The notes under the pieces are model-generated. The model saw nothing but the letters and a program-made list of their open reading frames with translations, had not been told where the DNA came from and searched no databases. Shown here piece after piece: positions 1 through 7,730 of a stretch of DNA of 64,000 nt. The stretch comes from Trichococcus alkaliphilus (lineage in GTDB: Bacteria > Bacillota > Bacilli > Lactobacillales > Aerococcaceae), in contig NZ_PXZT01000007.1 of assembly GCF_003008695.1 (NCBI RefSeq), forward strand, positions 62,001 to 126,000. Reading direction: 5' to 3'. Both the position numbers and the translations under genes were made by a program. Every line of letters starts with the position of its first letter. Position 1 is the first letter of the stretch.

Positions 1-67
1 AAATGATGCCAAAGAGCAAGCAATTGCTCCGCTACGACATCAACAAACACATCCACGTCTTCAGTCA
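1..67 (-). CDS. Partial ORF downstream of cch-like helicase
   Basis: Only the first 22 codons are visible; the gene runs off the left edge. The ATG at 67 is preceded by AAGGAG eight bases upstream and lies 26 bp after the helicase stop, so it is probably co-transcribed with it. The visible N-terminus (MTEDVDVFVDVVAEQLL) is acidic and helical and does not look like the start of a serine recombinase. In SCC elements small DNA-metabolism genes and then the ccr recombinases follow the helicase; whether that holds here cannot be seen. Confidence 0.5.
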
Positions 68-93
68 TTGTTCTCTTCTCCTTCATTACGTAT

Positions 94-1899
94 TTATTCG
101 ATCTCATCGGCGGGATTGCCTACACAGTGTTCTTCCTCGGAAAAATCATCTGGCCTAAAGGAGTAAGATGTTCCCGTCGATGGAAGCATCAGAGATGGGG
201 GTTCTACGAAAAGATGATGGTACTCTCGAGGAACGACTATGCTGTACAGCGGGGTTTTCTTCCTACCGATCCCTTCAACATCCAAATTTTTTCTCACCGT
301 TTGCCTTCCTGACTCGGTAACGAGCAGACCCTTTTTTGCCCAATCTTTCAGAATTACTTTAGCATCCTGGTATTTAAGCTCTGTCATCATGGGCTCGAAG
401 TGTAATTTCAGTATGGAAACAACGATTTCAGTTTCAAAATTAGCTGATCGCTTCGTCGAAATTAGCCCTATCACTTCGTAAGGTATACGTCCCTGATTAT
501 CCCGGACAAGTTTCGCCTGATGCTCAACGAGATATTGCAACACATCATCGAACGCTTTTGTACCATGATCGCGATCATCGAAATTGTCCTTATCGTTTTC
601 AAGTAACATCGCTCGGAGAGCATCGACGTTTATCTCAATTCCGGTATGAGCCGCCAACAAAGCTGCAGTGGCCATTATAGCTGCAAGTTTTATCGAAACC
701 CGACGCGTCGTATCTGAAGCAGGCATTTGTTCGAGCAACAACTTCCGTTGACGTTCAAACTCTTCATCAATTGAATGAAGCCCTACTTCGAACAGGCGAG
801 TAACAAAATGGGGCAGTAGATTCCCGTAATGGTTTGAAATAGCGCTTTTGATGTTCTCCGATTGTGCTGCATCTCTGGTCCATTGAACATGGGAGAACTC
901 TAAGATCCTTACTCGGAGTCCGAGGTTATTTGCCAGCCTATTGAAGATCGACAACTCGCCTGTTGATAGAATGACCGTTGACCAATGTGCACTTTCGCGT
1001 AAACCACCATCTTTTGTGGATCGATCCTTCTGCTTGCCTTCTGCTAAAGAATACAACAACGCCGTTAAGTCAACAGTCCGCGACTGAGAAAGCTCGTCGA
1101 AGCAGATCGGGATGCCGTTTACGCCATCCAAAGCGCTCATCATGGAGTTGATAGTCGCATTCCAAGATTTGAGCAACCCCTTATTCGTGGAGGTCGGTGC
1201 ACCCGCCACACTTAATGCCAACATGGCCGCCGTCGTTTTGCCGCTTGATGATTGTCCATTCAAGGCAACGAAGAGGGTCTTTAAGTCAGTGTGCTTCGAC
1301 TCAAGATATGCGACAATGGGTGCTGTACACCCAAGCACAACTGCCAATTCCAACGGAATGTGTCCTTGAATATGTGTGCGGTACATGTTCAGCCACGCTT
1401 TCAGAGACCCTTTTGGAAATACATTTAACTTTGCACTTTCTGACAAAGAGTAACCTCTTTCTGGGATTGCTTTTGCATGGAAGAAAACCGGCTCGTCGCC
1501 AGTTTCCCCCCACCCAAACTGATTAAAAACGTTTTCCACCTGAGCATGCGCTCTACTTGCCAACAGAGCTTCCGTAACTTGACGCTTATTGGCCATTGTT
1601 ATATCGAGACCATACTGTATAAGTTGTTCGCTTCTCTGGCTTGTTAGCTGATCACTAGAAATCCACTGCGTTTCAGTTTTCTGCGTACTAACTCTTCGGT
1701 ATTCCAGCTCGAGGGATTCAACCCCAGTAGTTCGGTCAACCCGAATGCTTTTTACCCGTGCAAAATCGGCTATTTTCATGTATTTATCGGTTTCTTTACC
1801 GCGAACCAAGATTCCTTCTTCTCTGTCGATGCAAAATCGTCCGAACAACAGCCTTGAAGAATTATGCGTAGGTGTAGGCGTCAACTCATCTCTATCCAT
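94..1899 (-). CDS. cch: DUF927/AAA+ helicase-like protein, SCC Cch type
   Basis: Predicted ATP-dependent replicative helicase of a mobile element, about 601 residues. A DUF927-like N-terminal half leads into an AAA+ core: Walker A GQSSSGKTT (near residue 215), Walker B ICFDELSQ (about 265), a sensor-like STVILSTGE (about 310) and a probable arginine finger region GLRVRILEF. Staphylococcal SCC elements carry a DUF927-containing MCM-like helicase, Cch, thought to allow replication of the excised element. I chose the ATG at 1899 because GGGGAA sits seven bases upstream; a TTG at 1935 is possible but unsupported. The start overlaps the stop of the upstream 175-residue gene by 8 bp, indicating translational coupling. 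Identity as Cch rests on motifs and neighbours, not on an alignment. Confidence 0.75.
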   Translation of the reverse strand: MDRDELTPTPTHNSSRLLFGRFCIDREEGILVRGKETDKYMKIADFARVKSIRVDRTTGVESLELEYRRVSTQKTETQWISSDQLTSQRSEQLIQYGLDITMANKRQVTEALLASRAHAQVENVFNQFGWGETGDEPVFFHAKAIPERGYSLSESAKLNVFPKGSLKAWLNMYRTHIQGHIPLELAVVLGCTAPIVAYLESKHTDLKTLFVALNGQSSSGKTTAAMLALSVAGAPTSTNKGLLKSWNATINSMMSALDGVNGIPICFDELSQSRTVDLTALLYSLAEGKQKDRSTKDGGLRESAHWSTVILSTGELSIFNRLANNLGLRVRILEFSHVQWTRDAAQSENIKSAISNHYGNLLPHFVTRLFEVGLHSIDEEFERQRKLLLEQMPASDTTRRVSIKLAAIMATAALLAAHTGIEINVDALRAMLLENDKDNFDDRDHGTKAFDDVLQYLVEHQAKLVRDNQGRIPYEVIGLISTKRSANFETEIVVSILKLHFEPMMTELKYQDAKVILKDWAKKGLLVTESGRQTVRKNLDVEGIGRKKTPLYSIVVPREYHHLFVEPPSLMLPSTGTSYSFRPDDFSEEEHCVGNPADEIE

Positions 1900-2419
1900 T
1901 AAAAGATTCCCCATACCCCATATCCGGCAGCTCAAATTCTTCGCGTTCAGTGTGTGGCTCTAAGTGGTATAAGGACTCATCAAAATTAACGCCACCATCA
2001 GAAGATGGCCAAGAATATGGATCATCTTGCACCGGATATTCAATTAGATTCCACAAATTTTTGAATGTGTAATCACCATTGGGAGATGTTTGCTCCACTA
2101 TCGTAATGATAAACGTTCTGCCGATTATTTGACGGAGATCGATAGAGCCATCATTCGCAATGCGAATTCCATCACCCAGCGATTCAATTAATCGATCATA
2201 GTTGTATGGCGTTCTCGCTACAGATGTTATACCAGGGAAGTATGCTTGGTATAGTGAATCCAGACCTGAAATCACGTATGATGACAATCGTTCTTCAATT
2301 TGGAAGGTGATGATCAGATTTTGGTTAGCGTTGTCCGACTCTTTTACTTCCAATACTTTAGCGATAGCGTGCATCCGAGCGTTGCCGCCTGTAAGTTGTT
2401 TAATATTAATTGTTGTCAT
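1892..2419 (-). CDS. Uncharacterised 175-residue protein coupled to the helicase
   Basis: Not recognised by name. The first 125 residues are rich in beta-forming segments (LIITFQIEERLSSYVISGL; GRTFIITIVEQTSPNG followed by a YTFKNLWNLIEYP strand), and the last 45 are acidic and probably disordered. A beta-rich domain with an acidic tail, encoded directly before a helicase with overlapping stop and start codons, would suit a single-stranded-DNA-binding accessory protein, but this is inference. AGGAGG nine bases before the ATG supports the start. A strong terminator at 2575-2624 separates it from the upstream unit, so it likely heads its own transcript with the helicase. Confidence 0.7.
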   Translation of the reverse strand: MTTINIKQLTGGNARMHAIAKVLEVKESDNANQNLIITFQIEERLSSYVISGLDSLYQAYFPGITSVARTPYNYDRLIESLGDGIRIANDGSIDLRQIIGRTFIITIVEQTSPNGDYTFKNLWNLIEYPVQDDPYSWPSSDGGVNFDESLYHLEPHTEREEFELPDMGYGESFNG

Positions 2420-2531
2420 AGTTGTTTTCCTCCTGCTTATGTGCCTAAAGTGACGGTTTCTACTAAGCTCACACTGGCCAGCGGTTTAGCTTGCCTTAAT
2501 AATATTTGATTTCTAGGATTTAGTATTCACC

Positions 2532-2558
2532 GTAACAACTTTAAATGTTATAAGTTAC
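2532..2558. promoter_or_regulatory. Imperfect inverted repeat upstream of the 175-residue gene
   Basis: GTAACAACTT and AAGTTAC are arranged as inverted arms around an AT-rich centre, between the terminator and the start of the 175-residue gene. It could be an operator for the helicase operon. No convincing -35/-10 pair was found next to it. Confidence 0.25.
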
Positions 2559-2574
2559 AAGGAAAAAATAGACA

Positions 2575-2624
2575 AAACAAAAAAGCGCAAAGAAGCGTGC
2601 TACCTGTAGCAAGCTTCTTTGCGA
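2575..2624 (-). terminator. Rho-independent terminator
   Basis: Long hairpin with arms CGCAAAGAAGC and GCTTCTTTGCG plus an inner GCTAC/GTAGC pairing, followed on the minus strand by a T-rich tail TTTTTTGTTTTG. It ends transcription coming from the AT-rich 2864-3907 gene. Confidence 0.85.
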
Positions 2625-2863
2625 TCTGTAGAAGGTAATATCCACAAAAGAACTAAATATAGTTACAAACAAAAAAATAAAAATTCTTTTTTTTCTTCAT
2701 TATATAGAAAAATCGACAAACGGTTTTGGTTTCATATTGAATTCGTTCACTTTACAAACGATAAATATTACGAAAAAGAACTGAATTATTTTTGCTCTTT
2801 TAATAATTTTATTTTTTTACGAATACAACCATTTTATGTAAGGATCGTAAAGGTGATTATATT
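2625..2863. other. AT-rich non-coding stretch
   Basis: About 240 bp of very AT-rich sequence downstream of the AT-rich gene. A plus-strand open frame runs through it but has no ribosome binding site and a composition typical of non-coding AT-rich DNA. I see nothing else recognisable. Confidence 0.5.
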
Positions 2864-3907
2864 TTATCTCCAAAAAGTCTCAGCAATGAATTCAGCTAAA
2901 CTTTTATCACTTTTATTGCCTCCAGCTACTATATGCATATAATTTGAAATATTCTTGAGAGGATTCAATTCCTTATCAAGTCTATCTTTATCTAGATCTG
3001 GAATAAAACTAGATAAATTAATCATTTCATTCTTCAGTTCCATTTCCAATGTCGGACTTGCATTGAATCGAAAAAGTTCATTAAAAACACCCTCTATTTT
3101 TTCAAGATCTTCTAAAGTTAGATCTCTAAGTAATTGGCTGAGCATTTCATACCTTTTTTTCCTAGTCTTCTTCCAATCTGTCCCTTCGAAGTTGTGGCTC
3201 TCTATATCATCTAGAAAATTAGATAGTAATAGAGAGCTTTCAATTTCAAAATGGCCCACAAAATTTAAATGATACACTTTGATATTGCCCACCAAATTAT
3301 TGATTAATGCACCGAAATTTTCTTTTCCAGCACTTTCTCTTAAACACTTCAAAGTGTTTTGTAACACACAAAAAAATAGAAAGTCTGATAATACTTGCAG
3401 TGGAGTTTGGTTGATGACAGCTACTTTATCATGATTTGCCACATTAACTTGCTTATCTCGTCCAAGTATTTTCAGTAAATCACTCAACAAACTTGTATAT
3501 GTAAGTTTCTCCTTATTAGCATTGTTTTTTTGATAGGCATACATCGGATGATATGACATAAGAATCAGTATAGCAATAGCTAGTGGTCTGGAATGAATTG
3601 CCCTATGCCGATAATCAGAAAACACCTTATCGTCAAAACCTGCACTTCGGTATGAATTTCCATCTTCCATCTGCCTAATCCATATAGGTCCTAATGATCG
3701 CCATATATAATCGTCTTCCTCATCTATCATACTTTTCCCTGTAGCAGTACAAGAGACGAGCGTTACAGCATCCAGTAGTAATCTGTGCATATATTTTACA
3801 TTATTTTCTCTCATTTCAGAACCCAAACGTAACATTCGCTTATTTTCTCCAGGTTCATTCTTAGGTCTTAAATACAGTGAAAAATCATACAAATCAATTA
3901 TCTTCAT
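2864..3907 (-). CDS. AT-rich cargo gene of unknown function
   Basis: A 347-residue cytosolic-looking, mainly helical protein I do not recognise; no signal peptide or clear transmembrane segment. Base composition is visibly more AT-rich than the flanking cassette genes and the chromosome, suggesting independent acquisition as cargo. A short motif RHRAIH near residue 105 fits the R-x4-H pattern of HEPN ribonucleases, which would suit a defence gene, but one short motif is weak evidence. ATG at 3907 is preferred over the GTG at 3928 because AAGGA lies about 10 bases upstream. The gene is monocistronic, with its own downstream terminator. Confidence 0.65.
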   Translation of the reverse strand: MKIIDLYDFSLYLRPKNEPGENKRMLRLGSEMRENNVKYMHRLLLDAVTLVSCTATGKSMIDEEDDYIWRSLGPIWIRQMEDGNSYRSAGFDDKVFSDYRHRAIHSRPLAIAILILMSYHPMYAYQKNNANKEKLTYTSLLSDLLKILGRDKQVNVANHDKVAVINQTPLQVLSDFLFFCVLQNTLKCLRESAGKENFGALINNLVGNIKVYHLNFVGHFEIESSLLLSNFLDDIESHNFEGTDWKKTRKKRYEMLSQLLRDLTLEDLEKIEGVFNELFRFNASPTLEMELKNEMINLSSFIPDLDKDRLDKELNPLKNISNYMHIVAGGNKSDKSLAEFIAETFWR

Positions 3908-4027
3908 TTTAAACCCACATCCTTGCACAATAATATAAACTTATTATACAAGGATTTTGCAGTTAGTACATCGATTCTTCCTTCATTAATGATTTACACT
4001 CGATTTACTTACTTGTATTGGGTATCC

Positions 4028-4546
4028 TTAATTTATTGGGAATATGTTCCACGATTTCCTGACATTCGGAGACAACGGATGGCACATTTTCCCAACGTCT
4101 TCATCCCCTATGTAAACGCACATCGCGGGAGACTGATCTAATTTAGAAATCAGTCTCTCCACACGTTGCTTCACAACCTTATTTTTATCCGGCAAGCTTC
4201 CCCATCCGAAGATTACCGTTTTGCTTTTCCCTACACAATCCAAAATAGTGTCATCGTTCGTTTTATTGGTTGCATTCGCAAATGCTTTCATCCCTCTAGC
4301 TGAGATACCCACCTTCGAAAATAGGTTGACAGAGTAAAAAGATCCGTATCCCATTTTATACAAATGATTCGTGATTAACATTTGTGTTGTATCCGTAATC
4401 ACAAGTTCAGCTGAACCGGGATATAGCGTTATTATGGTACACGTTGGTTTATCCTTGTCCCATTCCTTGTATAGGACATAGCGATGTTTAGCATCATCTG
4501 ATTCAGTCACCTCTACTTTTATTGCAGCCGAAATCTGCTTAACCAT
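4028..4546 (-). CDS. DUF1643 family protein
   Basis: 172 residues with the DUF1643 signature: RYVLYKEWDKDKPTCTIITL near the N-terminus, then an SVNLFSKVGISAR-like block and VIFGWGSLP. The biochemical function of the family is unknown. DUF1643 genes are among the most regular residents of SCC elements, typically near DUF960 and the ccr genes, and the same company is kept here. ATG at 4546 follows AGAAGG by seven bases; a TTG one codon earlier is less likely. It is the last gene of a leftward unit starting at DUF960. Confidence 0.8.
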   Translation of the reverse strand: MVKQISAAIKVEVTESDDAKHRYVLYKEWDKDKPTCTIITLYPGSAELVITDTTQMLITNHLYKMGYGSFYSVNLFSKVGISARGMKAFANATNKTNDDTILDCVGKSKTVIFGWGSLPDKNKVVKQRVERLISKLDQSPAMCVYIGDEDVGKMCHPLSPNVRKSWNIFPIN

Positions 4547-4630
4547 CAAACCACCTTCTTTCCCTTTATCACTTCTTCTATGACAATTATTGAAACTGAA
4601 ACTACAATTCTTAAAAGTAACCCCATCTTT

Positions 4631-4714
4631 TCAGTCCTTTCCGCTATCAGCCTTGAGTAGATTGGCGATGACTTTTAACCCTTCCAATACTACGAGCAGC
4701 AAATCGCTATCCAC
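4631..4714 (-). CDS. 27-residue amphipathic peptide
   Basis: GTG-initiated small ORF with a very strong ribosome binding site (GGGGGAG, about seven bases upstream). The peptide begins MDSDLLLVVLEGLKVIANLL and ends in a short charged tail. Hydrophobic and charged residues alternate as in an amphipathic helix. It sits between the 95-residue gene and DUF1643 with short spacings, so it is probably translated from the same transcript. Function unknown; resemblance to phenol-soluble-modulin-like peptides is compositional only. Confidence 0.5.
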   Translation of the reverse strand: MDSDLLLVVLEGLKVIANLLKADSGKD

Positions 4715-4729
4715 AGTACTTCTCCCCCT

Positions 4730-5017
4730 TTAAACAAACGCTTTATAAGAAGTAAGTTTATTATCTTTGAGCACCCCCAGAAGCTTCCATTCTCTGTTTG
4801 CTACATCTGTGATGATGTACACAATATATTCGTCGATGGCGTAGTAATGTACAAGAACTTCCGTTTCAGTATTAATCTCATCGAAAAAATCCGGCAAAAG
4901 ATTCGAATCAAGTTCATCTCTTAACAGCAGAACGCTCTCAGTAGCGTAGTCAGCGCTGTTTGTGGAACAACCGAAATCCTTGTGCATCAAATCCATTACA
5001 TACTGCAGTTTTCCCAT
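4730..5017 (-). CDS. Uncharacterised 95-residue protein
   Basis: Small soluble protein, MGKLQYVMDLMHKDFGC at the start, acidic in the middle, with beta-like segments (EVLVHYYAIDEYIVYIITD; EWKLLGVLKD). GGGGAGG about nine bases before the ATG makes it a confident gene. Not recognised as a named family. Its place between the RadC-like gene and DUF1643 makes it part of the cassette's conserved leftward operon. Confidence 0.7.
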   Translation of the reverse strand: MGKLQYVMDLMHKDFGCSTNSADYATESVLLLRDELDSNLLPDFFDEINTETEVLVHYYAIDEYIVYIITDVANREWKLLGVLKDNKLTSYKAFV

Positions 5018-5042
5018 GGTTTATCCTCCCCTTTACTTGCCG

Positions 5043-5126
5043 TCAAACACTCAGTCTTAAAGCAAGGCTCACAATGTCTTTGAAAAAATAAGATTGATTC
5101 TCTCGGAATTTTTCATCATCGGCCAT
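5043..5126 (-). CDS. 27-residue ORF after the RadC-like gene
   Basis: ATG at 5126 begins two bases after the stop of the RadC-like gene; the peptide begins MADDEKFRENQSYFFKDIVS and has a hydrophobic C-terminus. There is no good Shine-Dalgarno at ideal spacing (GGTGGG is 12 bases away), so translation would rely on coupling to the preceding stop. Possibly real, possibly chance. Confidence 0.35.
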   Translation of the reverse strand: MADDEKFRENQSYFFKDIVSLALRLSV

Positions 5127-5128
5127 GC

Positions 5129-5629
5129 CTACATGTACCCACCCGTTTTTAGCGAAACAAAATCATCATCGCCCAATATGATGTGGTCTAGCACATCGAT
5201 GCCCAAGAGCTCCCCTGCTTCAGTCAATCTTGCTGTCATCACAAGATCAGCTTCAGATGGTTCAGGGTTCCCGCTTGGGTGCGTGTGACCTACCATGATG
5301 CGTGCTGAATTGGAGAGTATCGCCGTCTTAAATATTTCACGCGGATGCGCAATTGATGAGTTGATACTACCGATATGACAGCAATTGATGTTTGTAGGCT
5401 CGTTTTTAGTATTCAAACACAGCACAATCAGGTATTCACGATCGACATCCCCCAAAAACTGGCCCATCAATTGGTAGGCATCGTTCGGGCAGCTGATGGC
5501 ACGGTACTTGTACAGTAAGGATTTGTCTTTCACCATCTGAATTTTCACAATGTCCACACGTTTGGCTGCTGTATTAGCTAATTCATCATCTGTATGTTGT
5601 TTTGATTGATTGCTGTATTGGTTTTTCAT
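5129..5629 (-). CDS. RadC-like JAB/MPN domain protein
   Basis: 166 residues. It carries the JAB/MPN+ metalloprotease-like motif GHTHPSGNPEPSEAD (about 113-127), the RadC signature, but lacks the N-terminal helix-hairpin-helix region of full-length chromosomal RadC (normally over 220 residues). Short RadC forms like this are common on integrative elements, SCC included; their function is not established, and DNA repair is doubtful. AAGGGGAG precedes the ATG at good spacing. It follows DUF960 by 16 bp and belongs to the same transcript. Confidence 0.8.
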   Translation of the reverse strand: MKNQYSNQSKQHTDDELANTAAKRVDIVKIQMVKDKSLLYKYRAISCPNDAYQLMGQFLGDVDREYLIVLCLNTKNEPTNINCCHIGSINSSIAHPREIFKTAILSNSARIMVGHTHPSGNPEPSEADLVMTARLTEAGELLGIDVLDHIILGDDDFVSLKTGGYM

Positions 5630-5645
5630 TTCAAAACTCCCCTTT

Positions 5646-5951
5646 TTAATAGTCTTCTGGAAAAAGCATCGTTTGGTAGTCTTCGTTGTCGATCACCCAG
5701 ATGGTTTTAGTGATGCAGCAATCATTGGGCACCTTCAGAAGTGTCTCCTGGCTCCATTTAGGCTCTTCTTGGCCATGCACAACAAGCTGACCATATTCAG
5801 TGGCCTTTAACTCAAATTTCTGAAAGTAATCCATCTCATTCCCGTTCTGGACTTGATCGTCGATCAGGGACCACAGAAAGAACTGGGTTTCGATTGGAAC
5901 GGTATTATCTACACTTCTGGTGACATAGCGGTTATTTTTTGATTGAAACAT
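5646..5951 (-). CDS. DUF960 family protein
   Basis: 101 residues opening with FQSKNNRYVTRSVDNTVP and QFFLWSLIDD, the characteristic DUF960 start, and a C-terminal CITKTIWVIDNEDYQTMLFPE block. Function unknown; the family is a hallmark of SCC ccr-flanking regions and is also found on other Firmicute elements. It is the first gene of a leftward operon (DUF960, RadC-like, 95-residue protein, small ORFs, DUF1643). Only about 35 bp separate it from the upstream terminator, so its promoter must be compact or transcription may read through. Confidence 0.8.
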   Translation of the reverse strand: MFQSKNNRYVTRSVDNTVPIETQFFLWSLIDDQVQNGNEMDYFQKFELKATEYGQLVVHGQEEPKWSQETLLKVPNDCCITKTIWVIDNEDYQTMLFPEDY

Positions 5952-5984
5952 ATTTCATCCCTCTTCCACTCGTTATTTTTAGGC

Positions 5985-6030
5985 AAAAAGAAAAAGGCCA
6001 AGATCCGCGTATGGAATCTTGGCCTTCTTA
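5985..6030 (-). terminator. Rho-independent terminator
   Basis: Arms AAGGCCAAGAT and ATCTTGGCCTT with a T-rich minus-strand tail (TTTTTCTTTTT). It closes the two-gene unit of the 106- and 56-residue proteins. Confidence 0.85.
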
Positions 6031-6098
6031 TTTGTCTGATGGTTCACGGATATAATATATATTTCAAATCTTTATTGACTCGTTACCTGTTGGTTTAA

Positions 6099-6269
6099 TT
6101 AATCTGCAAAACTATTTTGCGAATTCTTTTCACGTTCGTCCTCATTATCTTTTTTGGCAGTCCTGGCGATTAAATCTGTCAAAAATAGAATTGCTTCTGC
6201 TATTTGACCTTTATACTTCCAAAGTATAAGCAAAGCTTTTTTTATGGCCGCTACTTGTACTGAACTCAT
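6099..6269 (-). CDS. 56-residue amphipathic small protein
   Basis: ATG at 6269 overlaps the TGA of the upstream 106-residue gene (ATGA), with AAAGGAG nine bases upstream inside that gene. Residues about 5-40 form a basic, hydrophobic helix including AIKKALLILWKYKGQIAEAI; residues 41-56 are hydrophilic and acidic. The WKYKG segment recalls leaderless class II bacteriocins of the aureocin A53/lacticin Q type, which have similar length, but the acidic tail is atypical and no export or immunity genes are adjacent. Function unknown. Confidence 0.55.
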   Translation of the reverse strand: MSSVQVAAIKKALLILWKYKGQIAEAILFLTDLIARTAKKDNEDEREKNSQNSFAD

Positions 6270-6586
6270 ATATTTTTCTCCTTTAAACTTTTCTTAATGG
6301 CATGCTTTAGAACCATTCTTAACAGTTTATTTTTGGTGTTCTCTAATAGGTCTCTTATCAAAAGATCTCTGAGTTCAACACTAGTCAACTCTGGATTTTC
6401 TTCTAACTCCATTCTGGCTCTCATATATAATTTTTTTGGTTTTAAATTCAACTGAGACATAATCATGTCTTTAGAATCTTCTAATTCTTCAGGCAGTATC
6501 TCTCTAACAACTGTTTCATATCGTGCTTGTGCAGCTTCCAAACTATTCTTGGTTACAGTATTTAATTCATATTGCTTTTCTCCCAC
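6266..6586 (-). CDS. Uncharacterised 106-residue helical protein
   Basis: GTG start preceded by AAGGGGATG. The protein is highly charged and predicted helical (TSVELRDLLIRDLLENTKNK) with a basic C-terminus. No family recognised. It is translationally coupled to the 56-residue gene and the pair is closed by a terminator at 5985-6030, so they form a two-gene unit. A regulator-effector or toxin-antitoxin-like arrangement is conceivable but unproven. Confidence 0.6.
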   Translation of the reverse strand: MGEKQYELNTVTKNSLEAAQARYETVVREILPEELEDSKDMIMSQLNLKPKKLYMRARMELEENPELTSVELRDLLIRDLLENTKNKLLRMVLKHAIKKSLKEKNI

Positions 6587-6885
6587 TTAATACATCCCCT
6601 TCCCAAGTTCCTTCTATACCTTAATATTACTATAAATATCAAAAATAAACTTAAATATATTTCCACATGCTAAAATAGCTTTCAACACTTTACAACTGCT
6701 TTATACCTAGGACCATAAAATTTTAGGTTATGATAGCTTGGGACACTTTAATGTTTGGTTGATTATTTGCCTTGTGAAGAATGACGCACAAAAGAATCTA
6801 GAATGCTCTCTGGAGTATGGCTCGAAGTTCTGTATTTTCAACCTGTTTTAGATTACAGCCTTAGATGATCCGGAAGGCAAAAACA
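6587..6885. other. Non-coding interval at the right end of the cassette
   Basis: No gene seen. On the minus strand TTGATA and TATAGA, 18 bp apart (about 6620-6651), could be the promoter of the 106-residue gene. The rest shows no recognisable repeat, site or RNA. Confidence 0.4.
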
Positions 6886-6925
6886 AAGCGGAAAGCCCGT
6901 CATCATAGGCTTTCCGCTTTTTCGA
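6886..6925. terminator. Bidirectional terminator downstream of rlmH
   Basis: Perfect arms AAAGCGGAAAGCC and GGCTTTCCGCTTT around a nine-base loop, with T tracts on both strands. It lies about 80 bp past the rlmH stop and insulates rlmH from the cassette. Confidence 0.85.
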
Positions 6926-7004
6926 TTCTATTCTCTTTTTTAAGTCATTTCGGCAGATAGCTCAGGAATACCGTCAAACCGCCATTCCCTTCAAAAAAAT
7001 GACC

Positions 7005-7019
7005 TCATTTGTGGTACGC
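7005..7019 (-). other. SCC-type attachment-site sequence in the rlmH 3' end
   Basis: The last 15 bases of rlmH read GCGTACCACAAATGA on the minus strand. This fits the SCC attachment consensus GCNTAYCAYAARTRA; it differs from the Staphylococcus aureus form GCATATCATAAATGA only at three synonymous positions. Because the RlmH C-terminus is universally conserved, the motif alone does not prove insertion; the SCC-type genes beside it make it a credible junction. No second copy was found in 1-7000, so the other boundary would lie outside. Confidence 0.6.
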
Positions 7020-7484
7020 ATGCCCATGGATAATCCGGAAAGCGCGGTAGATCTGTTCGACGAGCACGAGGCGCATGAGTTGGTGCGGGTAGGTCAGTTT
7101 GCCGAAGGAGATGTGCTGGTTGGCGCGGGACAGGACGGCTTGGCTGAGGCCTAGCGAGCCGCCGATGATGAAGACGATGTCGCTTTTGCCGGAGGTGCCG
7201 AGTTTGTCGATTTCGTTGGCGAATTCGACGGAGTCGTACTGTTTGCCTTGGATTGCCATCGCGAAGACGTAGCTCTGTTCCGGGATTTTGGCGAGGATCT
7301 TTTCGCCCTCTCTGTCCTTGATGATTTCCATCTCTTTATCGCTCAGGTTTTCGGGCGCTTTTTCGTCCCCGACCTCGATAATCTGCAGCTTGCAGTAACT
7401 GCCCAGACGCTTCGTGTATTCGGCGATGCCCTCCTTCAGATATTTCTCCTTCAGTTTTCCGACCGTGATGATTTTTATGTTCAT
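7005..7484 (-). CDS. rlmH: 23S rRNA pseudouridine1915 N3-methyltransferase RlmH
   Basis: 159 residues, exactly the family length. SPOUT methyltransferase that methylates pseudouridine 1915 of 23S rRNA using SAM. Visible landmarks are the N-terminal [15 protein letters not shown], the [11 protein letters not shown]-binding loop and the invariant C-terminal IIHGHAYHK knot. ATG at 7484 is chosen because AAAGGAG lies nine bases upstream and family members start at this methionine; a longer frame to 7544 is not conserved. In Firmicutes rlmH usually lies near htrA and the wal operon, as here. It is the insertion site of SCC elements in staphylococci. Confidence 0.95.
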
Positions 7485-7730
7485 TCCATTTCGCTCCTTT
7501 TTCTTCTCAACTACTATCCTATGGGAACAAGTGCGATTTCGCAACCGTCTTTTTGTTTAACAGTTTTATGACTAAAATATATCCACAGTCTCAGTTTTAT
7601 CTTTTTATTAACCAACATGGTTGTACAGTCTTATTATAATATGAAGGAAAGTGCAATTTTCGTCTGAAAAAGGCGTGAAAACCATTTGCTTTTTTCTGTA
7701 AATGATTTAAGATACTCTTATGCTTTTGAG

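Follow-up and report, generated by a model that had tools for sequence, protein, structure and literature searches.

An SCC-type chromosomal cassette with a permuted gene order at the 3' end of rlmH in Trichococcus alkaliphilus

In staphylococci, methicillin resistance travels on staphylococcal cassette chromosome (SCC) elements. The S. aureus SCCmec carried by plasmid pRM27 (locus L142), an element of SCC pattern 1, was used as the Staphylococcus reference; its genes are ordered as follows: a 348-aa gene, a single-stranded DNA-binding protein gene, cch, ccrA, ccrB, SAUGI, DUF960, DUF1643 and JAB. The element described here adjoins rlmH in Trichococcus alkaliphilus (RefSeq assembly GCF_003008695.1; 2.96 Mb, 25 contigs) and was met at the start of a 64,000-nucleotide stretch of contig NZ_PXZT01000007.1 (C23), positions 62001-126000. 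This whole stretch is called the window (window base 1 is C23 62001). Other genomes, contigs and loci are given by number (G, C and L).

Cassettes with ccrAB at rlmH have been described outside the Staphylococcaceae as the Enterococcus cassette chromosome (ECC; PMC6222049), and ccrAB genes also appear in PMC3068701; the available part of the ECC paper names only ccrA and ccrB (and rlmH) as genes common to the ECC elements. For Trichococcus itself, Table 1 of PMC10061031 lists an island of T. pasteurii DSM 2381 with CcPol-MP, two large serine recombinases and a COG3378 helicase, and the available text of the same source places PolA-SSB primase islands mostly at rlmH, many of them with restriction genes. 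Variants of the uracil-DNA glycosylase (Ung) inhibitor SAUGI were reported in permuted SCC elements of Macrococcus, Salinicoccus and Jeotgalicoccus, from a PSI-BLAST search limited to the Staphylococcaceae (PMC10303552), and SCC-like islands at rlmH are named in Mammaliicoccus, Macrococcus, Bacillus, Geobacillus and others (PMC10581047). An earlier note on this DNA, made from the sequence by eye, had presented a host range beyond Staphylococcus as new; the Enterococcus (PMC6222049) and T. pasteurii (PMC10061031) elements were already published. No account of a DUF927-type Trichococcus cassette or of a Lactobacillales relative of SAUGI was found in the literature, which is weak evidence, as only top-ranked titles without supplements were covered. 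Cassettes of this kind are familiar; less familiar are the present host group and layout of genes.

The first 7 kb of the window are the rlmH-proximal 40% of an SCC-type cassette of about 17.3 kb (Table 1), and we regard it as almost certain that this is a complete chromosomal cassette of the pattern 1 kind, inserted at the 3' end of rlmH. Two attachment (att) cores on one strand, attL and attR, bound it at a core-to-core distance of 17.29 kb, and its G+C content is 41%, against 45-48% in the surroundings. In the direction of transcription the genes run orf106, orf56, DUF960, RadC, orf95, DUF1643, orf354, orf175, cch, ccrA, ccrB, hsdR, hsdM, hsdS and orf231; the cargo is a type I restriction-modification system, and mec genes are absent. 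The earlier note had proposed an SCC-related element in a Carnobacteriaceae-like host from leftward genes for a DUF927/Cch helicase, DUF1643, DUF960 and a RadC-like protein. Pfam recovers each of these genes where it had been placed, and the host belongs to Trichococcus, for whose genomes the tree tool gives the label Carnobacteriaceae. The recombinases that the note expected beyond the left edge are there, as two large serine recombinases of the CcrA/CcrB type on the same contig, 0.1-3.2 kb left of the window, and attR is the second att copy that it had asked for. It had also put the cassette directly downstream of rlmH: this is right for the cassette end, the att core lying in the last rlmH codons, and too close for the first open reading frame (ORF), which is found about 420 bp further on. 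The range it had marked, 1-7019, stops almost exactly at the att core (7008-7022).

Table 1. Features of the cassette and its target (window positions, unless preceded by C23)
Feature	Position	Strand	Evidence or remark
rlmH, insertion target, attachment core at its 3' end	7005..7544	-	Pfam SPOUT_MTase/RlmH 5.4e-60
attL core CATGCGTACCACAAA	7008..7022 (C23 69008-69022)	-	last codons of rlmH
Strong intrinsic terminator, rlmH-side end of the cassette	6885..6920	-	14-pair stem and T run
orf106, 106 aa	6266..6586	-	no family above cut-off
orf56, short ORF, 56 aa	6099..6269	-	no family above cut-off
DUF960 protein, SCC core gene	5646..5951	-	Pfam 1.3e-23; 30% to S. aureus SCCmec DUF960
RadC/JAB-domain protein, SCC core gene	5129..5629	-	Pfam 7.1e-39
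orf95, predicted SAUGI fold (uracil-DNA glycosylase inhibitor)	4730..5017	-	AlphaFold2 model and Foldseek
DUF1643 protein, SCC core gene	4028..4549	-	Pfam 3.6e-26; 34% to S. aureus
orf354	2864..3928	-	without family in profile scans
orf175, possible OB-fold single-stranded DNA-binding partner of Cch	1892..2419	-	structure model and Foldseek
cch, DUF927 helicase, SCC pattern 1	94..1935	-	Pfam DUF927 3.6e-40, Cch helix-turn-helix 3.3e-17
ccrA, 470 aa	C23 60486-61898, left of window	same as cch	large serine recombinase domains
ccrB, 566 aa	C23 58807-60507, left of window	same as cch	large serine recombinase domains
hsdR	C23 55430-58255, left of window		type I restriction system
hsdM	C23 53774-55402, left of window		type I restriction system
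hsdS	C23 52630-53796, left of window		type I restriction system
orf231	C23 51818-52513, left of window		PHROG 'DNA binding protein' 2.7e-28
attR core CATGCTTATCATAAA	C23 51718-51732, outside window	same as attL	12/15 bases equal to attL

The degenerate att pattern has three matches in the 2.96-Mb genome, the third at C11 297601, and its reversed control has none. Three observations speak against the cassette being of the SCC type: the attL core reads TACCACAA instead of the TATCATAA present in attR (2 of 8 bases off), the attR arm atgttacgca is less symmetrical than the arms of most relatives, and no protein of the cassette passes the curated cut-offs of the staphylococcal Ccr and Cch models of NCBIfam. 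Because of these cut-offs, the Ccr and Cch proteins are referred to as relatives and not as named orthologues. An old remnant, whose genes persist downstream of rlmH and no longer move, would fit the difference between the attL and attR cores (3 of 15 bases) and the ccr-less stretches beside rlmH in several relatives (G001, G003 and G005; 20 kb read). We nevertheless hold such immobility to be unlikely: the central C is kept in both att cores, reading frames are uninterrupted in the core genes and in hsdRMS, and the matches of ccr, cch and hsdR span most of their profiles. In addition, the identities to T. ilyis DSM 22150 (G008) differ so widely (CcrB 92%, HsdR 91%, Cch 56%, HsdS 31%) that parts of the cassette appear to have been exchanged.

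Far att sites with a TATGATA arm, which forms an inverted repeat with TATCATA like the one described for the attR of ECC (PMC6222049), were seen in G001, G006, G008, G009 and a contig of G011; in the first four the second copy is on the same strand. The arm atgttacgca occurs in this cassette and at the third core of G009 (T. palustris DSM 9172), where three cores in a row delimit two tandem cassettes. G005 has no second att in the 20 kb read. Chance matches per locus amounted to 0-2 in a reversed 14-mer control, run without the fixed-C filter that was used for hits, and isolated second hits lacking an arm (G002, G004, G110, G138, G190 and some in G001, G009, G091 and G095) were not counted as att.

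CcrA and CcrB are encoded in tandem beside cch, and each has resolvase, recombinase and zinc-ribbon domains (Pfam). The best NCBIfam models score 485 bits for CcrB and 261 bits for CcrA, and identity to the S. aureus proteins is 40% for CcrB, 29% for CcrA and 32% for Cch. The cch frame is complete inside the window; its product matches NCBIfam SCCmet_Cch1 (2.9e-94; 316 bits, under the curated cut-off) and PDB entry 5dgk (4.9e-68). The RadC protein and the JAB protein of S. aureus SCCmec (105 aa) are 56% identical over 99 aa; the gene of the latter lies beside DUF1643. The RadC-like gene was accordingly rejected as a novelty, although the earlier note had counted it as an addition to the SCC gene set. 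DUF927 helicases are also found in pathogenicity islands (match to PDB 8tch; PMC7581432), as would suit a phage satellite or an integrative conjugative element that uses rlmH by chance. We consider this very improbable and rejected it: the recombinase pair, the small genes and the att sites are all of the SCC type, and a Pfam scan of the 15 cassette ORFs named no structural, packaging or conjugation gene. Searches of viral contigs with orf95, orf175 and RadC returned no relatives. With 10 cassette proteins as input, PADLOC recognised the two restriction genes included and gave weak JAB matches for RadC.

To reconstruct the empty site, 200 bases up to and including the attL core were joined to 200 from the far side of the attR core. 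Of the resulting 400 bp, 353 align with G001 at 92.6% identity, unbroken across the junction; on the attR side the similarity begins at the first base of the core. In the other genomes one side alone matches, or the two sides match apart. Empty sites in relatives, which the earlier note had suggested looking for, are also seen in G004 and G012, where no more than about 220 bp separate rlmH from the chromosomal gene found on the far side of the cassette in T. alkaliphilus; two further genes come next. That these are housekeeping genes, fixed in the lineage at a place downstream of rlmH, as the largely conserved order of the chromosome beyond the cassette might suggest, is refuted by these empty sites and by the lack of any cassette gene in the 20 kb after rlmH in G001, G003, G004 and G012, and has practically no probability left. 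The earlier note had named as grounds for abandoning its proposal the lack of recombinases and of a second att, and fixation of the genes in all relatives; the recombinases and the att were found, and some relatives lack the genes.

In G003 (L074, 530-1977) 1.4 kb lie between two att copies at rlmH and contain none of the genes of the T. alkaliphilus cassette, as in a mini-cassette or a remnant. In G001 (L072, 804-17423) two att copies enclose 16.6 kb in which nothing matches the ccr genes of the present cassette, so that the stretch would need recombinases from elsewhere. The empty-site Trichococcus genome G012 holds, at C19:287637-287711 and on another contig than its rlmH, a fragment matching only residues 155-179 of RlmH (88%), which is possibly a displaced att site.

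With staphylococcal SCC pattern 1 the cassette shares the rlmH target and the att core motif (motif from PMC6222049), and with S. aureus SCCmec the order of the genes for DUF927 Cch, CcrA and CcrB, and genes for DUF960, DUF1643 and JAB/RadC proteins. The DUF927 Cch directly before ccrAB is as in pattern 1. In contrast, LP1413 is not found before cch, and SAUGI (recognised by predicted fold only), DUF960 and DUF1643 do not follow the recombinases: the small-gene module precedes cch in Trichococcus and follows ccrB in S. aureus. Moreover, orf175, with its OB-like (oligonucleotide/oligosaccharide-binding) model, replaces the single-stranded DNA-binding protein, orf95 replaces SAUGI with hardly any sequence similarity, and a type I restriction system is carried instead of mec genes. 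The gene set is largely that of S. aureus, with the small genes standing first, an arrangement that a circular permutation would give. The earlier note was thus right that the order differs, whereas the difference stems chiefly from this permutation of the core and not from the insertion of new genes.

Like ECC, the cassette carries ccrAB and lies at rlmH outside the Staphylococcaceae. PMC6222049 gives for ECC att sites of about 50 bp, an inverted repeat at attR and the TATCATAA core; in the present cassette this core stands at attR, and attL has TACCACAA. Transfer and circles were shown for ECC in that work, whereas the Trichococcus cassette is known from sequence. The T. pasteurii DSM 2381 island, as tabulated in PMC10061031, belongs to the same genus and likewise has two large serine recombinases; it differs in its CcPol-MP pair and COG3378 helicase, the present cassette having DUF927 and no polymerase named among its ORFs. 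The permuted SCC elements in the available text of PMC10303552 resemble this one in their permuted core and, in two of them, in an inhibitor gene beside radC. Unlike the SAUGI variants given there, the orf95 family is found in Lactobacillales genomes and shows hardly any sequence similarity.

Orf95 lies next to the DUF960 and DUF1643 genes, where SAUGI would be expected. Assignment by sequence was dropped, there being no Pfam, PDB or convincing profile match: among 17 family members none matched a Pfam family above cut-off (two had chance-level matches only), and orf95 matched nothing in PDB by sequence or by profile. The alignment of the 17 members has 7 invariant columns, including glutamates E27 and E35, eight residues apart. 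An AlphaFold2 model from 3 sequences (predicted local distance difference test, pLDDT, 78; predicted template modelling score 0.71) has one helix and five strands, and its top Foldseek match among 350,542 PDB chains is SAUGI (6lyv_F; probability 0.99, template modelling scores 0.60/0.59, E 0.059), followed by an unrelated lipoprotein carrier (probability 0.72). All 17 relatives are acidic (net charge -4 to -15; S. aureus SAUGI -12). Two results count against the match: the sequence signal between orf95 and SAUGI is nearly nil (hhalign probability 1.4%), and 26 of 1940 scored shuffles equal or exceed the score of SAUGI on the orf95 profile. On the strength of the predicted fold, orf95 is quite likely the missing SAUGI of the cassette. 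This prediction would make the function of one core small gene simple to test at the bench.

The model of orf175 has a mean pLDDT of 60.6, with strands mostly at 70-82, an OB-like core of moderate confidence and an acidic tail of low confidence. Foldseek placed PrgE of pCF10 at the top, ahead of CST, RPA and further OB folds; no match reached E<=0.001. Orf175 is thus modelled as a possible single-stranded DNA-binding partner of Cch that occupies the place of LP1413. LP1413 itself was ruled out, orf175 having no similarity to the S. aureus single-stranded DNA-binding protein, and orf354 was likewise ruled out as the counterpart of the 348-aa S. aureus gene in the like position.

By analogy with relatives, for which CcrA/B excision and insertion, Cch replication and Ung inhibition are described (PMC6222049, PMC7581432 and PMC10303552, as available), CcrA and CcrB would recombine attL with attR, releasing a circle and restoring rlmH, and the reverse reaction would be insertion. 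Cch and the OB-fold protein may replicate the excised or incoming DNA, orf95 may protect uracil-bearing DNA of the element against the host uracil-DNA glycosylase, and the restriction system may help to maintain the cassette in the population. With the full SCC machinery, its att sites and an empty site now seen in a genus from the environment, and with CcrB relatives recognised across the order (20 of 395 genomes, 17 of them with an rlmH nearby), the wider pool of elements related to staphylococcal SCC can be searched directly.

Of the genomes searched, 5 of 13 in the genus, 9 of 76 in the family and 20 of 395 in the order have CcrB at >=250 bits; weaker hits (in 55 of 76 genomes at E<=0.001, and in 3 of 23 at 1e-60) were left uncounted. 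In 17 of the 20 genomes an rlmH lies no more than 26 kb away on the ccrB contig, and in 3 it is on another contig; the whole cassette core is reversed relative to rlmH in 3 of the 17 (G022, G095 and G190). The nearby rlmH of G091 is the second of two copies (C1:812387-812878 and 745437-745889; L123 and L122), which are 67 kb apart; a ccrB relative lies 8.4 kb downstream of this second copy, as if a cassette had carried or duplicated rlmH. A CcrB tree was built from 24 of 48 rows (3 duplicates, 1 short frame (L090), 2 partial genes (L047 and L098) and 18 weaker hits were left out). With midpoint rooting, the 5 Trichococcus sequences and 14 others, including S. aureus, group together and 5 weaker hits stand apart. 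The Trichococcus CcrB sit at two separate places in this tree; therefore at least two cassette lineages entered the genus.

For layout, the rlmH loci of 14 genomes outside Trichococcus were read. Relatives of orf95 and DUF1643 occur together, upstream of a full ccrB and on its strand, in 11 of them; in the stretches read, these 11 also have RadC (7), DUF960 (8) and a DUF927 cch (9). The order within the module varies, DUF1643 preceding RadC and orf95 in G110 and G138, and in G160 a second, partial recombinase also precedes the module. The loci without orf95 are G091, G188 and G033 (a stretch of 1.9 kb). All 5 Trichococcus genomes with ccrB have the identical order of module and ccr genes, and two of them (G006 and G011) have no relative of this cch; G005 has DUF960, RadC and orf95 near rlmH without ccr. 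In all 16 Lactobacillales cassettes that showed both module and ccr genes, the module lies upstream. On balance we favour the reading that cassette chromosomes are old, order-wide elements of the Lactobacillales with a layout of their own (a module with orf95 and DUF1643, often with DUF960 and RadC, upstream of the recombinases), that staphylococcal SCC is a permuted relative, and that orf95 represents an unrecognised core family of Ung inhibitors. If this is true, all these elements would have a basic need to protect their uracil-bearing DNA, probably while it enters or replicates in single-stranded form.

The terminator at the rlmH side folds at -23.9 kcal/mol (6865-6925; z -3.77), and its stem and T run fall within the 155 bp of the cassette that adjoin rlmH. 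It probably serves rlmH. Sequence similar to the terminator stretch directly follows rlmH in G005, G008 and G009, and a diverged copy (83%) lies beyond attR at C23 51450-51589. Read most simply, cassettes bring a copy of the rlmH terminator with them, at the end that faces rlmH; we infer selection for this copy, which would keep rlmH terminated after insertion. Four more diverged copies (64-101 bp, 79-86%) are found at C23 32020-37693, no further than 37 kb from rlmH; the rest of the genome has none at E<=0.001. About 130 bp (C23 51590-51717) separate the attR core from the terminator copy beyond it; in G001 (L072) this stretch directly follows rlmH, from 819, and is mostly found again after the second att, from 17438.

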